From a virus, in the IMG/VR virus record IMGVR_UViG_3300017952_000118, positions 1-22,114 of that record: a stretch of DNA of 22,114 nucleotides; one strand, written 5' to 3'. The position numbers and the translations under genes were made by a program. This document shows positions 9,038-22,114 of the stretch, piece by piece; the stretch's first letter is position 1; each line of letters begins with the position of its first letter. A model generated the notes under the pieces. That model was not told where the DNA came from and ran no database searches. It was given only the letters and a program-made list of their open reading frames with translations.

Positions 9038-9676
9038 ATGGCAAACACAGTAGAAGATATGAAAGCGATTATATCCAAGAAAGGAGGTCTCGCGAAGACA
9101 AATCGATTCAATGTAATCTTTACACCTCCTTCGGCTTCATTGTTAAATCTAGATCCTCAGGCTATTATCGGATCTTTAATTGGTGGAAGATTTAATGTAA
9201 AGAATCTGATCAATGATCCGAGAGATATATCTTTGCTTTGTGAGAGTGCACAATTACCTGGAAGACAAATCACTACTCACGATTATATGGCACACAAACA
9301 ATCAGTTAAAATTCCTTATACATTTATAAATGAGGATGTTAGTCTTACATTCCTTCTTACAAACGATTATTCTATGAAGGTTTTGTTTGATGATTGGATG
9401 GGTTCTATAATAGATCAAAATTATAGACTATCCTATAAAAAAGAATTCACTACAGATGTTATTATTCAACAATTAGACCATGATGATGTTCCAGTGTACG
9501 GTGTGAAATTAGAAAACGCCTTTCCTACATCATTACAGGCAATTGAATTAAATAATACATCTGATAATAGTGTACAAAAGGTAACAGTGCAATTGAGTTA
9601 CGATAATTGGGTCCCAGAAGGACCGCTCAGTAGTACAGGAAGTGCTATTCGAGCAGTAATTGATGCGATAATATAA
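9038..9676 (+). CDS. 19: Tail tube protein, gp19 family
   Basis: A 212-aa protein of the T4 gp19/tube-initiator type. Family features are TNRFNVIFTPPSASLL near the N-terminus (residues about 21-36), LLCESAQLPGRQITTHDY (about 67-84), VSLTFLLTNDYSMKVLFDDW and the terminal strand VQKVTVQLSYDNWVPE. Gp19 (163 aa) stacks as hexamers to form the inner tube. This one is longer and its neighbours are hub genes, so it could instead be the gp54-like initiator on which gp19 polymerises; a second tube gene elsewhere would decide. The start has GAGAGG eight bases upstream, and the gene follows its neighbour after two bases. Confidence 0.8.
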   Translation: MANTVEDMKAIISKKGGLAKTNRFNVIFTPPSASLLNLDPQAIIGSLIGGRFNVKNLINDPRDISLLCESAQLPGRQITTHDYMAHKQSVKIPYTFINEDVSLTFLLTNDYSMKVLFDDWMGSIIDQNYRLSYKKEFTTDVIIQQLDHDDVPVYGVKLENAFPTSLQAIELNNTSDNSVQKVTVQLSYDNWVPEGPLSSTGSAIRAVIDAII

Positions 9677-9690
9677 TATAGGAGAATATA

Positions 9691-10398
9691 ATGGCATTAC
9701 CAAAGTTGAATGTTCCTCGTTATTCGGTAAATTTACCGTCTACTGGGAAAAAATTAAGTATGAGGCCTTACCTTGTAAAAGAGGAAAAGGTATTAATGAT
9801 AGCATTAGAGTCAAATGACGTTGTTCAGATCTCGAATGCAGTGAAGGATGTTATTCAGTCTTGTTATGATATTGATGATATGGACGAATTAACAATGTTT
9901 GACATTGAGAAACTGTTCTTAGACTTACGCGGTAAGTCTGTTGGTGAGAATATGGATATCAAGATTAAATGTAAGTCTTGTGATCATATGACACCAGTAA
10001 CAGTTAATGTTGACGATGTTAATGTGTCTAACCTAGATCAAGACAGAGTTATTATGTTGGATGAAAAAACCGGTGTTGGTGTGAAGATGAGATATCCCAC
10101 AGTAAAGACACTACAAGGTGTGAATCCAGAAAAATTAAATTCTGTTGAAGGTGTAATGGAAATAATTGGTAGTTGTATGGATACCATCTTTGATGAAGAC
10201 AATGTTTATGATGTTTCAGGAGAATCGAAAGAGTCTATCCTTGATTTTATTGATACCCTTAGTGGTGATCAATTTAGAAAAATCCAGGGATTCTTTAAAG
10301 AATCTCCAGCTATAGTATATGGCAGTAAGTTTAAGTGTGAGTCCTGTAAAGAGGAAAACGAGTTTGAGCTCAAGGGTCTAAACAGTTTTTTTTCATAG
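9691..10398 (+). CDS. 26: Baseplate hub/tail assembly protein gp26, zero-frame product
   Basis: A 235-aa protein of the T4 gp26-type baseplate family (T4 gp26 is 208 aa). Two CxxC pairs, Cys94/Cys97 (KCKSCDH) and Cys216/Cys219 (KCESCKE), probably bind one zinc ion as a split ribbon. The region between them has an acidic helix and MRYPTVKTLQGVNPEKL. The start is supported by AGGAG six to seven bases upstream; the same 14-base module AGGAGAATATAATG precedes the gene at 13308. The last codons are AGT TTT TTT TCA TAG. A slippery run there, with spacer and hairpin, suggests that part of translation shifts to -1 and adds 65 residues. The place just before a tape-measure candidate is where frameshifted tail assembly chaperones lie in many tailed phages. 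Confidence 0.85.
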   Translation: MALPKLNVPRYSVNLPSTGKKLSMRPYLVKEEKVLMIALESNDVVQISNAVKDVIQSCYDIDDMDELTMFDIEKLFLDLRGKSVGENMDIKIKCKSCDHMTPVTVNVDDVNVSNLDQDRVIMLDEKTGVGVKMRYPTVKTLQGVNPEKLNSVEGVMEIIGSCMDTIFDEDNVYDVSGESKESILDFIDTLSGDQFRKIQGFFKESPAIVYGSKFKCESCKEENEFELKGLNSFFS

Positions 10399-10414
10399 GT
10401 CTCTCGCATGAGAG
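10386..10414 (+). promoter_or_regulatory. Probable -1 ribosomal frameshift signal at the gp26 end
   Basis: In the zero frame the sequence reads AGT TTT TTT TCA TAG. Positions 10386-10392 form T-TTT-TTT, a canonical X-XXY-YYZ heptamer. An eight-base spacer (10393-10400) is followed by a hairpin: CTCTC at 10401-10405, loop GCAT, GAGAG at 10410-10414. The -1 frame after the heptamer is open for 65 codons and has no start codon before its 20th codon. All three elements are seen; frameshifting itself is inferred. Confidence 0.72.
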
Positions 10415-10589
10415 CTTAACAAATTATTATCAAACTAACTTTGCCTTAATGCAACACCATAGGTATAGTTTGACAGAGTTAGAAGAGATGATGCCATGGG
10501 AGAGACAGATATACATTGCGCTTCTACAACAGTACATTGAAGAAGAAAACCAAAAGATAAAGTCGAAAAAAGGCTTTAAGGGGTTATAA
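10392..10589 (+). CDS. -1 frame extension of gp26 (gp51-position domain)
   Basis: Reading in -1 from 10392 gives 65 residues, FIGLSHESLTNYYQTNFALM then HHRYSLTELEEMMPWERQIY and a Lys/Glu-rich helix. The MPWERxIYIxLL helix looks like genuine phage protein and resembles the C-terminal parts of frameshifted tail assembly chaperones; in T4 order this is the gp26-gp51 junction. The only in-frame ATG (10449) lies 20 codons in, lacks a ribosome site and would cut off the conserved NYYQTNFALMQ part. The stop TAA (10587-10589) directly touches the ATG of the next gene. The gp26 fusion would be 299 aa. A separate short protein from a non-standard start is the alternative. Confidence 0.72.
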   Translation, partial: FIGLSHESLTNYYQTNFALMQHHRYSLTELEEMMPWERQIYIALLQQYIEEENQKIKSKKGFKGL

Positions 10590-10910
10590 ATGACAGAAGA
10601 AGTTAAAAGTAATTATCATCCGGCTGATACAAACGGAGATGGTAAAGTATCGAAAGAAGAAGAAAGAATGTACTTAGAGTTCAGAAGAAAAGAACTCGAA
10701 GATATGGATGCAATGAGGGATGCACAACGCTCTATGGCATGGTTTGCACTTTTTGGAATGTTATTATATCCATTTGCCGTAGTATTAGCATCTTTATTTG
10801 GATTAGAAAAGGCATCAGATATTCTCGGTGATATGGCAGCAACGTACTTCGTTTCAGTTGCAGCAATCGTTGCAGCGTTCTTTGGTGCTCAGGCTTTTAC
10901 TAAAAAATAG
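10590..10910 (+). CDS. EF-hand membrane protein, unknown function
   Basis: A 106-aa protein with one canonical calcium-binding EF-hand loop at residues 13-24 (DTNGDGKVSKEE, ligands Asp13, Asn15, Asp17, Lys19 carbonyl, Ser21, Glu24). A charged helix follows, then two membrane segments at residues about 50-72 (AWFALFGMLLYPFAVVLA) and 83-103 (ATYFVSVAAIVAAFFGAQAF). The loop lies on the same side as the N-terminus, with both ends probably on one face of the membrane. It starts directly at the stop of the frameshift product and precedes the tape-measure candidate. I recall similar proteins, unnamed, in marine T4-like genomes. Its late, tail-gene context suggests a virion or lysis-time membrane role; that is inference. 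Confidence 0.82.
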   Translation: MTEEVKSNYHPADTNGDGKVSKEEERMYLEFRRKELEDMDAMRDAQRSMAWFALFGMLLYPFAVVLASLFGLEKASDILGDMAATYFVSVAAIVAAFFGAQAFTKK

Positions 10911-10920
10911 GGCATAAGAA

Positions 10921-12903
10921 ATGGCTGAAGATCAAAAACCACAAGATCCTAGAGAAAAGAAAAAGGATAAGTTCCAACAACTGATTGAGCAGATGGCTAA
11001 GAATAATGAGCTATCTAAATCAACAGATGACCATTCTAGAAATTCTCGAAGACATCTATTAGAAACCAAAAAGATTAATACGAGTATAAAGGAAACTTTA
11101 GACTCTATGGTGAAATCTTCAGAGGCTTCCAAGGGTGATGAGAATGAAAAAGAAATGGAAAGGATGCAGGTTTTTGAAGATATTAGAGACTCAATTGCAC
11201 AAGGATTTTCTGCCCCAGCCTCTTCAGGGGGAGAAGGCGGTGGTCCTGGATTATTAAGTGGTGCGGGAGATCTTCTGAAGGGTGCTGGACTTGGCGTTGG
11301 TGCTGGAGCAGCTGGTATAGGTGCACTACTCGCTGGAGGAGGATATCTCCTTGGTGAAATTAATGATATGGATGGGGAGAAGATTAAAAATAACATTATG
11401 TCTATACTCTCTATTGGTGATGAATTAGTTGCTAGGGAAGGAAGTGCACTCAAAGCATTTGGAGAGGCAGGATTATTAGCTCTTACCCTTGGAGGATTAG
11501 GAGTTGGTTTAGCAGCATTTGCAATTGGCGCTGGTGCAGCATCAGTTGTTACTCGATTCGAAACTCCAGGATGGCCAGAACAAATTAAAGAAAATGTGTT
11601 GACCCTACTATCAATTGGTGATTCAGGCGGAGGCAATTTAAATGTTTTGGGTGATTCAGGAACTCTTACACTTGCACTTACAGGATTAGGGATTGGACTT
11701 GCAGCATTTGCAGTTGGATCAGCTGGAGCATCTACTGCTACAGCTATAGCTAAGTTCGAAGGACAAGAGAATTGGGCACAATCTATTAAAGACAACGTAT
11801 TAACATTATTATCAATTGGTGATTCCGGTGGGGGTAATCTAAATGTTTTGGGTGATACAGGAACTCTTGTACTTGCACTTACAGGATTAAGCGTAGGTTT
11901 AGGTATATTTGCCCTTGGTACTGCAGCTGGTGCATCAGCACAAGCTATAGCTAAATTTGAAGGTCAAGAAGATTGGGCTCAGACTATTAAGAATAACGTT
12001 CTCACTCTTCTTTCAATTGGTGATTCTGCAGGAGGTAATTTAGAACTATTAAAAGATAGTGGTGCAGTTACCCTTGCTCTTACAGGGTTAGGAACAGGGT
12101 TAGGAGCATTTGGAATTGGATCTGGAACAGCTGCAGGAGCACAGGCATTCTACGAATTAACAAAACAAGAAGGATCTGGATCGTTTGCTGAACATATTAA
12201 ATCAGAAGTAGAAACGTTATTGAGTATCGGTGATATAGAAAATATAGGAAATATTGATACTGCAATGGAAGCTCTTGGTAAGTTAGGAATTGGACTTGGT
12301 GCATTTGGAACAGGATCCTGGATTGCAGCATTAGGACAAGCAGGAGCAGCACTACTAGAATTTTTCTCAGGGAAAGAAGGTCCAGTAGAAACAGCTTTAA
12401 CTATAGCAGATAACGCATCTAGAATTGATGAAGGTGCTGCAGCATTTGAAAGGTTTGCCGATTCCTTGAAGAAGTTTGAGAACATTACAATTGATTTTGA
12501 TGCATATCAATTCTCTCAAAACCTAGGAAGAGGAGTTAGTAATTTAGAATCTATTCTATTAGGTGGTAACGTAAGTATACCTGGTCTTGGTAACGATATA
12601 GAGCTAAAAGGATTAACTAATTTAGGAACTGAAACAGAGACTGCGGCAATGCACATTGAGAGATTAAGAAATGTTCTTTCGATGAGCGATGGATCACAAA
12701 CTATGAATTCAACATCAAGTTCTACGGGTTCGAACCTTATGTCTATCTCAGCAGAAAACGTAGAGCTCAAAGCAGATTCTGTAACTATACCTCCAATAAC
12801 AAACATATCAAACGTCAGAGGTGGAGACACAAGAGGTGGAGATCAATACACCCTTGCTACACCAACACCAAGTAGAACAGTCGAAGCATTAGAAACAAGG
12901 TAA
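10921..12903 (+). CDS. Probable tape measure protein (gp29-like), tandem-repeat rich
   Basis: A 660-aa protein. The N-terminal 90 residues are highly charged and coiled-coil-like. Residues about 100-145 are Gly/Ala-rich and hydrophobic. Five tandem units with the core LLSIGD follow (LSIGD, then a GGNL/GTLTLAL block, a hydrophobic GLGAFxxG stretch and an xWAQxIK linker). The first four cores are exactly 67 residues apart (11398, 11599, 11800, 12001); the fifth follows after 70. The C-terminus is polar with a Ser/Thr-rich tail. The length is near that of T4 gp29 (590 aa), the tail ruler, and the gene directly follows the gp26 frameshift cassette as a tape measure gene usually does. I see no sequence motif proving it is gp29. 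Another virion protein is possible. Confidence 0.7.
   Translation: MAEDQKPQDPREKKKDKFQQLIEQMAKNNELSKSTDDHSRNSRRHLLETKKINTSIKETLDSMVKSSEASKGDENEKEMERMQVFEDIRDSIAQGFSAPASSGGEGGGPGLLSGAGDLLKGAGLGVGAGAAGIGALLAGGGYLLGEINDMDGEKIKNNIMSILSIGDELVAREGSALKAFGEAGLLALTLGGLGVGLAAFAIGAGAASVVTRFETPGWPEQIKENVLTLLSIGDSGGGNLNVLGDSGTLTLALTGLGIGLAAFAVGSAGASTATAIAKFEGQENWAQSIKDNVLTLLSIGDSGGGNLNVLGDTGTLVLALTGLSVGLGIFALGTAAGASAQAIAKFEGQEDWAQTIKNNVLTLLSIGDSAGGNLELLKDSGAVTLALTGLGTGLGAFGIGSGTAAGAQAFYELTKQEGSGSFAEHIKSEVETLLSIGDIENIGNIDTAMEALGKLGIGLGAFGTGSWIAALGQAGAALLEFFSGKEGPVETALTIADNASRIDEGAAAFERFADSLKKFENITIDFDAYQFSQNLGRGVSNLESILLGGNVSIPGLGNDIELKGLTNLGTETETAAMHIERLRNVLSMSDGSQTMNSTSSSTGSNLMSISAENVELKADSVTIPPITNISNVRGGDTRGGDQYTLATPTPSRTVEALETR
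11398..12400 (+). repeat. In-frame tandem repeat, 201-bp period, inside the tape-measure candidate
   Basis: Successive LSIGD cores start at 11398, 11599, 11800 and 12001 (three exact 201-bp steps) and a fifth at 12211 (210 bp). Units two and three are most alike at DNA level, for example CTTGCACTTACAGGATTA in both. This points to recent unit duplication. Confidence 0.85.
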
Positions 12904-19932: not shown

Positions 19933-20451
19933 CTATCTTTTACTGCAATTCCTCTTGGCTCTATCATATACCTTCAGATTGTTATGGACTACAATTGAGG
20001 TTATTATTGTTGTAGGCATAAGAACCTCATCTGTAATTAAGCCTCTTCGGTCTATCTCAGGTAATAGATTACCGAATATGAAGGTTTTTAAAAGTATCAT
20101 TTCGCGAACTTCAGGTACCCTTGGTAATAAAGGATTCATTTCATATACACAATCGTAAGCGAGGGCTCTTTTGGTAGACCAGATATCTCCAGCTTGAGCC
20201 AGAAAAAATAATGTCCAGGTAGCTAAGCTGGCAGGATCCTCCTCTGTTATTTTTATATCATTTAATATATTAGATTCAATAATGTATATTTCAGGGGATC
20301 TGTGTCTTTTTATATATTCTTCGTTATATGGTGCATAATACCCAGCATCAAATAATACCTTTCTTTGAGGAGATATATCTGCTTGTACTGAAGTACTTAT
20401 AAGAAGTATTCCAAGTATTAATTTATTTAGTTGTAGCAATAAAGACTCCAT
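19933..20451 (-). CDS. Secreted or membrane small protein next to the cyclase
   Basis: A 172-aa protein with a signal peptide, MESLLLQLNKLILGILLIST and SVQA before a likely cleavage at DIS. The second half resembles an uncharacterised phage and bacterial domain (DUF5658-like by eye): TWTLFFLAQAGDIWSTKRAL followed by DCVYEMNPLLPRVP, where a Asp-x-x-x-Thr helix and Glu-x-Asn-Pro-Leu are the marks, then hydrophobic helices. The C-terminus is basic. The start lies 29 bases inside the cyclase coding end, so the two are co-translated. The role is unknown; it could be a periplasmic or membrane partner of the cyclase, which is inference from the overlap only. Confidence 0.78.
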   Translation of the reverse strand: MESLLLQLNKLILGILLISTSVQADISPQRKVLFDAGYYAPYNEEYIKRHRSPEIYIIESNILNDIKITEEDPASLATWTLFFLAQAGDIWSTKRALAYDCVYEMNPLLPRVPEVREMILLKTFIFGNLLPEIDRRGLITDEVLMPTTIITSIVVHNNLKVYDRAKRNCSKR

Positions 20452-22114
20452 CCCAATCCTTCGGTAAATCTTGCGTTTTCATATATTCGCAACGCTCTAT
20501 CCACATATCATAATAGTTATCCATTTTACCATCAAACTCACCTTTTAAATCATTACAGAATTTTATAGCCATATCAAATTGTTGTGATCTATATAACTCA
20601 TGCATCTTATTATGTGTATCTTGTCTTGAGGGCCAATCTGTATTATGCCATGCCCAAAACCATGTATCTAAAACTGTATAAATCCCTATACCAACACTCT
20701 TACCTTTTACTGCAAGATCATCAATCTTAAGGAAAAAGAAATCCTCCTCACATTGTTTTACAGTAGATTCACCAACTAATAATAAGCAACCATACTCTTT
20801 GCATTTAGATTCTATTCTTGCTGCTGTGCTAACTGCATCTCCTAAAACATCATATGAATGCCTGCTTGTACTTCCCATTTCTCCAAGGTAACCCAAGCCA
20901 CTATTAATTCCAGCACCCATACCAATCGGAGGTCTACCTTCGGCTGTGATTTTTTCATTAAACCTCTCCACTGCCTTTAACATATTGAGTCCAGTTTGGA
21001 CTGCGCTCTTTGGATGATTTGGGTCATCATTTGGAGCATTATGGACATGCATACTAGCATCACCAATATACTTTATAATCATACCATCTGCATTCAATAC
21101 TGGTTGTGTAATAGCATCCATATATTCGTTCATGAGTTTAGTTAATCCCTTTACATCATCACCAAAGGATTCTCCCAATGGGGTAAATCCTCTTAGGTCA
21201 GAGAAGCATATAGAAATTTCCCTTTTCATACCGTCTTTAATTAATGATGGATTTTCTTGTAACATACGAACGACTGTTGGAGAGCAATATCCTGCAAACT
21301 GTTTTTGTATTTCTTGTCTAAGTTTAAATTGAACCCAGAAGTTATTAAATGAAGCAGATGCGAATGATATTATAAATATTAGTATGACTATAGTTGGGGA
21401 AAGAAGTATTCCAAAGTTAGTCCAAGAATACCAGAATCCTCCTAAAACACCAGAAGATAAAGATATAAAGGTAATTAATGATGCCCAAAGTGGAAGATAA
21501 TATACACCCAATACAATCAAAAGAGATCCAATTAGAGTTAGACCTATTTCCAATAGAGATCCATATATCGGACGAGAAATTGATTGATCCGATAATATTG
21601 TCTGCAGAGACATTGCCTGAAGATGATGAGCTGGAAGAAGACCAACCGGTGTTGCTATCTGAGAAGCTACCCCACTTGCAGTTAGACCTACAATTATAGT
21701 TTTACCTTGTAGGTTAGGAAGAGTATCAACCCCATACTCATATCTTTCAAATTCATAATTGGTATTTAACCATATAGATCCATTTGCATCTGTAGGTATT
21801 TGAAATGGTCTCAATATAATTTCTTCGATTCCTAAATCATTTACCTTAATCGTATATGATGGTTTCTCGTTTAATATTCTGATTGTCTCTAAAGAAAATG
21901 ATGGATATAATTCATTATTAATCTGAGATAGAAGAGGAATCCTTCTTGTAACACCATCAACTTCTGGCATACCATTTATTAATCCCACACCCCAAGCCTG
22001 TTCTTCGATTATAGGAATATTTGTTACGAGTCCATTATATCGTATTGCCCAATCAAGAGGATCACCAGTACCAAACACAGCGGTACCTACATAAGGAGCC
22101 TTTTCACTTCTTCC
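20423..22114 (-). CDS. CHASE2-type membrane class III nucleotide cyclase (partial at right edge)
   Basis: The frame is open to the window edge; 563 residues are seen and the start lies outside. Numbering here begins at the codon at 22078. Residues 1-165 are the C-terminal part of a CHASE2 extracellular sensor (AWGVGLINGMPEVDGVTRR and LQGKTIIVGLTASGVASQ). Three membrane helices follow (about 173-245). The cyclase domain spans about 285-470: metal Asp294 (ICFSDLRGFT) and Asp340 (KYIGDASM), base-selecting Lys336 and Asp410 (SYDVLGDAV), catalytic Arg421 (AARIE). Lys and Asp predict ATP as substrate. The usual Asn four residues before the Arg is Ser417. A helical tail ending DWDGVFIATTK is typical of CHASE2 cyclases. 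It probably makes cAMP in response to a periplasmic signal. Confidence 0.9.
   Translation of the reverse strand, partial: GRSEKAPYVGTAVFGTGDPLDWAIRYNGLVTNIPIIEEQAWGVGLINGMPEVDGVTRRIPLLSQINNELYPSFSLETIRILNEKPSYTIKVNDLGIEEIILRPFQIPTDANGSIWLNTNYEFERYEYGVDTLPNLQGKTIIVGLTASGVASQIATPVGLLPAHHLQAMSLQTILSDQSISRPIYGSLLEIGLTLIGSLLIVLGVYYLPLWASLITFISLSSGVLGGFWYSWTNFGILLSPTIVILIFIISFASASFNNFWVQFKLRQEIQKQFAGYCSPTVVRMLQENPSLIKDGMKREISICFSDLRGFTPLGESFGDDVKGLTKLMNEYMDAITQPVLNADGMIIKYIGDASMHVHNAPNDDPNHPKSAVQTGLNMLKAVERFNEKITAEGRPPIGMGAGINSGLGYLGEMGSTSRHSYDVLGDAVSTAARIESKCKEYGCLLLVGESTVKQCEEDFFFLKIDDLAVKGKSVGIGIYTVLDTWFWAWHNTDWPSRQDTHNKMHELYRSQQFDMAIKFCNDLKGEFDGKMDNYYDMWIERCEYMKTQDLPKDWDGVFIATTK

Follow-up and report, generated by a model that had tools for sequence, protein, structure and literature searches.

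A conserved -1 frameshift site putatively joining gp26 to a gp51-type domain as a tail assembly chaperone in marine T4-like phages

The analysis of the window (the whole stretch of 22,114 bases of a virus record) points to a gene pair of the phage tail in which gp26 very probably represents the short tail assembly chaperone (TAC-N), and the product of a -1 frameshift, i.e., a gp26-gp51 fusion, the corresponding long form (TAC-NC), as in the gpG/gpGT system of phage lambda. The original prediction had already proposed gp26 and its neighbour as the counterpart of the lambda pair, and this reading turns out to be well supported by the conservation of the slip site and of its phase, by the missing starts in the second frame, by the domain that this frame encodes, and by a predicted fold resembling that of a TAC. 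The features of the locus are reported in Table 1.

Table 1. Coordinates (within the window) and supporting evidence of the features of the predicted chaperone locus and of its neighbours
Feature	Position	Strand	Evidence
Tail-tube-family protein, upstream	9038..9676	+	PF23849 E 2.8e-9; PF06841 gp19 E 1.4e-8; phrog_45 E 1.8e-37
gp26 / putative TAC-N (0-frame product, 235 aa)	9691..10398	+	PF12322, phrog_150, AlphaFold2 model
Slippery heptamer T TTT TTT, in gp26 phase	10386..10392	+	Sequence; TTTTTTN of the relatives
-1 frame: putative TAC-C (gp51-type domain), 67 codons	10386..10589	+	phrog_634, tblastn, three-helix model
gp26 0-frame stop TAG	10396..10398	+	Sequence
Predicted hairpin, 9 bp with a one-base bulge	10396..10418	+	RNAfold
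660-aa Gly/Leu-rich repeat protein, tape-measure candidate	10921..12903	+	Position, length, composition

The last codons of gp26 are AGT TTT TTT TCA TAG, so that the heptamer T TTT TTT, which is included in a run of eight T's (T8, 10386-10393), falls in the X XXY YYZ phase; both the position and the phase of this motif at the 3' end of the gene are as they had been predicted. Before the slip site, the -1 frame is open for just six codons, and no ATG occurs in it until codon 22 (10449), which is embedded in the conserved core of the domain; hence, the frame has no credible independent start. Its TAA (10587-10589) abuts the ATG of the next gene at position 10590, in agreement with the initial description of a frame devoid of an early start and ending at the following ATG. 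In-phase TTTTTTN motifs occupy 3 of the 6311 codon positions of the 27 ORFs of the window, and only the one of gp26 is located 13 nt or less from a stop; the arrangement of the slip site is more than chance would produce.

As for the domain content of the two products, gp26 matches the Pfam family PF12322 (T4_baseplate) over residues 9-234 with an E value of 1.4e-59 and 201.9 bits (cut-off 24.5), a full-length match above the curated cut-off that assigns it to the T4 gp26 family; it also matches phrog_150 (E 1e-65). The -1 product matches positions 56-116 of the 121 of phrog_634 (baseplate hub assembly catalyst, gp51) with an E value of 6.7e-28, and also the tail of phrog_150 (E 1e-7). Against NCBIfam, neither of the two products nor the tape-measure candidate could be credibly assigned to a family. 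When the -1 product was used as a tblastn query, 587 of 50,697 phage records matched at E <= 0.01, most of them belonging to Synechococcus phages and cyanophages, with further matches in Vibrio, Prochlorococcus, Aeromonas, Rhizobium, Sinorhizobium, Methylophilales and Pseudomonas phages. The pattern of change in the -1 frame is that of a coding sequence: summed over all pairs of 16 loci, there are 1249, 491 and 2569 differences at codon positions 1, 2 and 3, respectively.

The junction was then compared in 258 loci (the window, 12 phage records and IMG/VR loci), corresponding to 184 distinct junctions; L093, which duplicates a portion of the window, and the loci from L259 onward were left out of this count. 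Since only the best 80 IMG/VR loci per search were taken where more matched, the IMG/VR counts are biased towards the queries. The alignment of the junction across phages, which had been suggested along with the original prediction, revealed that the slippery site and its phase are conserved: among the loci listed, the -1 offset is present in 180 of the 184 distinct junctions and TTTTTTN in 179, its last base being C in 131, T in 41, A in 4 and G in 3. The stop is found at +13 from the slip site in 130 of the 184, at +10 in 27 and at +34 in 23; offset, heptamer and stop position are common to the window and to 80 out of 80 of the best-80 IMG/VR loci. L122 shows the -1 offset with the heptamer TGTTTTC, and TTTTTTN is present in all the 43 gp26 clusters obtained at 60% identity, one of which also includes the TGTTTTC locus. 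The -1 offset is shared by named Kyanoviridae, including P-SSM2, S-PM2, Mosig, Melnitz and BUCT-ZZ01, as well as by Vibrio phage nt-1 (Straboviridae), Astolliot (Otagovirus) and Nitratidesulfovibrio phage SRB7757. The exceptions are L088 and L089, two T-even type loci with a fused gp51, Campylobacter phage CP21 (L090), having an offset other than -1, and Rhizobium phage RL38J1 (L086), which carries the same heptamer as the others in a locus cut by the end of the record. The RL38J1 record begins inside the chaperone gene, with the frameshift domain (1-246) lying within an annotated repeat (1-320) at the record start and the -1 part annotated as a separate hypothetical protein. In an alignment of 63 sequences, the two Phe encoded at the slip site do not vary. 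The putative -1 frameshift arrangement is, as far as these junctions go, widespread in marine T4-like phages.

It might be argued that gp51 is a separate small protein, translated by re-initiation or from its own start just past the gp26 stop, as the records of P-SSM2, S-PM2 and other cyanophages would have it, where gp51 or an unnamed small ORF is reported as a gene of its own right after gp26. In the start-codon count, from which 9 of the 258 loci were dropped for having fewer than 150 open upstream codons, 33 of 179 distinct junctions contain a -1-frame ATG no later than codon 14, and re-initiation could therefore contribute in those phages. However, 110 of the 179 have no ATG, GTG or TTG in this frame through codon 14, a Shine-Dalgarno-like motif precedes the start in 0 of the 69 distinct junctions having a start codon, 30 of the 43 gp26 clusters (60% identity) contain one or more members lacking any start, and in the window itself the first such ATG comes only with codon 22. 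Moreover, an independent downstream start would have no need of the invariant Phe pair of the slip site, and gp51 of the T-even type is a fused protein; taken together, these data make a separately translated gp51 very unlikely. Long homopolymers can provoke transcriptional slippage, and the RNA polymerase might slip on the eight T's of the window, giving mixed mRNAs and a fusion translated from edited transcripts with no ribosomal shift; nevertheless, the commonest junction, TTTTTTC (131/184), has only six T's, the heptamer is held in codon phase, and the excess of RNA structure on its 3' side would be needless for slipping transcripts, so that this explanation appears very improbable. Lastly, a homopolymer error of sequencing or assembly in the T8 run, splitting one continuous gene, is refuted, because relatives have the same -1 offset (180 of the 184 distinct junctions, from many phages including named isolates), and its probability is practically nil.

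The reading of the frameshift product as a TAC-NC is further favoured by the T-even type phages, which hold the same two domains fused. In Aeromonas phage 25 and JS98, gp26 is a short protein encoded on the opposite strand, whereas the gp51 product, of about 250 aa, matches PF12322 over residues 1-201 in JS98 and 2-198 in Aeromonas phage 25, with phrog_634 at the C-terminus; T-even type gp26 matches PF12322, not phrog_634. The gp26 and gp51 sequences of JS98 share 20% identity (E 3e-5 in a single comparison). The best reading is that phages of the T-even type reach the same two products via separate homologous genes, gene 26 encoding the short one and gene 51 the long one. Frameshifting is said to be conserved in several T4-like groups, and T4 reportedly uses genes 26 and 51. 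Two Campylobacter phages show other organizations: CP220 harbors one fused ORF of 244 aa, and in CP21 the gp51-type chaperone (1355-2084) is split with an offset that is not -1; since its relative CP220 has one fused ORF, that of CP21 looks like a split copy. In cyanophages and marine vibriophages, gp51 is described by Sullivan et al. 2010 (PMC3037559) as devoid of the first ~200 residues, a shortening that would be explained if the missing part came from gp26 via the shift.

The AlphaFold2 model of gp26 has a mean pLDDT of 91.5, and its residues 1-84 can be superimposed on the HK97 tail assembly chaperone 2ob9_A (82 aligned residues, rmsd 3.9) with a Z of 7.5, which falls under the value of 8 below which a structural alignment possibly reflects only a common arrangement. 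A single structure, the uncharacterised protein 3fgx (Z 7.8), is ranked above 2ob9, which is followed by 5ir0 (Z 5.3) and then by other folds at 3.6 and below. The Foldseek search of the same model against the PDB gave nothing at E <= 0.001, the matches having E values of 1.1 and above. As modelled, the N-terminal domain of gp26 resembles the HK97 tail assembly chaperone with a moderate score. The -1 domain is predicted to consist of three helices (pLDDT 79.5), the first of which begins at the slip site.

In regard to the RNA downstream of the slip site, the predicted 5-bp stem (10401-10405/10410-10414) with its 8-nt spacer is actually present in the window, as part of the 9-bp hairpin of Table 1 (-8.8 kcal/mol; z -2.0, RNAfold versus 200 dinucleotide shuffles), but it is not conserved across the relatives: in 102 representatives with a junction identity under 85%, 2.86 of the 5 pairs are kept versus 2.92 in codon-permuted controls, and the stem was rejected as a conserved element. 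Compared with the codon null, the hairpin region of the window is unremarkable (z -1.1 at +9). Among the 19 distinct junctions of the near relatives of the window, the stem is retained in some through a compensatory substitution (CTTTC/GAAAG) and disrupted in others (CTCTC/GAAAG). When six-pair stems were scanned in all registers, none was found to dominate, the fullest one (+28) being complete in 14% of the sequences.

From +9 to about +80 past the slip site, the folding of the RNA is more stable than in the codon-permuted controls, with z values from -10.2 to -11.9 at +9 to +21 (-11.9 at +9, -11.8 at +15), which weaken to -2.3 by +57 and go back up to -4.2 to -6.0 in the folding windows from +93 to +117 (unstratified null). 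These z values are inflated by the relatedness of the sequences, since a signal is also obtained from 11 upstream windows submitted to the same test (z -1.5 to -6.2). A fairer test, using 52 clusters as units instead of single sequences, gave P values of 8e-6 at +9, 3e-7 at +15, 1.5e-5 at +21 and 5e-5 at +33; in 11 other windows the smallest P was 0.002, two upstream windows having 0.002 and 0.004. The hairpins differ between lineages and some of them are very strong, such as those of S-PM2 (L083), L164 and L113. It seems that a putative stimulatory structure is kept downstream of the slip site while its register drifts. The balance is even on whether one or more lineage-specific hairpins within ~80 nt stimulate the shift in T4-like TAC genes, in which case selection would keep the presence of the structure and not its place, the protein being conserved.

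The tape-measure candidate is located two genes downstream of the chaperone and contains Gly/Leu-rich repeats of ~70 aa; it has no credible match in the Pfam, PHROG or NCBIfam profiles and no tblastn match in the phage records. Between the two, on the same strand, a small protein (10590-10910, +) contains an EF-hand-like loop and two hydrophobic stretches. Its score against PF13202 is 20.0 bits, below the cut-off of 25.9, and its relatives are found in 10 phage records (pelagiphage HTVC008M, Methylophilales Melnitz phages, roseophages CRP-207, CRP-345 and CRP-810, and a Limnohabitans phage). Toward the end of the window, on the opposite strand (20423-22078, -), a 551-aa ORF appears, as judged by eye from its translation, to combine a sensor and a putative adenylate/guanylate cyclase catalytic domain; such a cyclase-like ORF is unusual for a phage contig.

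On the basis of these data, the following mechanism can be proposed. gp26 would be the short chaperone, TAC-N, and a minority of the ribosomes translating it would slip back by one base at 10386-10392; the shifted ribosomes would bypass the gp26 stop (10396) and continue in the -1 frame as far as 10589, giving rise to TAC-NC. By analogy with lambda, in which these roles of gpG and gpGT are established, many short copies might coat the tape measure, and the TAC-C of the few long copies might recruit the tail tube subunits. The occurrence of the shift in cells, its rate and these roles of the two forms are inferred.

The original prediction knew of no earlier description of this arrangement for T4-like phages; it had already been reported, given that the TAC genes of these phages were identified by Vladimirov, Gautam and Davidson in 2022 (Virology 566:9-15), and that PMC12846349 credits the same study with poly-T -1 signals in T4-like TAC-N genes. 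The finding accordingly holds as a further example of a system already described. It consists of the same genes as the T4-like gp26 (TAC-N)/gp51 (TAC-NC) pair, and the groups other than T-even reportedly have the same poly-T -1 frameshift; compared with those systems, the locus analysed here comes from an uncultivated virus contig, and an analysis of the downstream RNA structure has been added. What may be new is that, across lineages, the RNA immediately following the slip site is more structured than in the controls, with no fixed register. According to the PRFect paper (PMC10885494), the short and the long TAC are encoded by separate genes in some T4-like phages. The lambda gpG/gpGT system, as outlined in PMC5009743, shares with this locus a short chaperone, a -1 slip near the 3' end and a C-terminal extension, the fusion being the minority product in lambda; it differs from it in the protein family and in the slip sequence, which is TTTTTTN here. 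In a different phage family, the Pakpunavirus/Vandenendeviridae TAC gene likewise shows a conserved -1 shift, there at the motif GTTTTT (PMC12846349).

In many records, the frameshift product is annotated as two genes, a baseplate hub and a hub assembly catalyst. For T4, the long-standing names of gp26 and gp51 are hub subunit and hub assembly catalyst, respectively. Together with the fused gp51 of the T-even type, the arrangement described here supports the idea that T4 gp26 and gp51 are the short and the long forms of a chaperone, and the gp51 annotation of cyanophages and pelagiphages should become a joined CDS.
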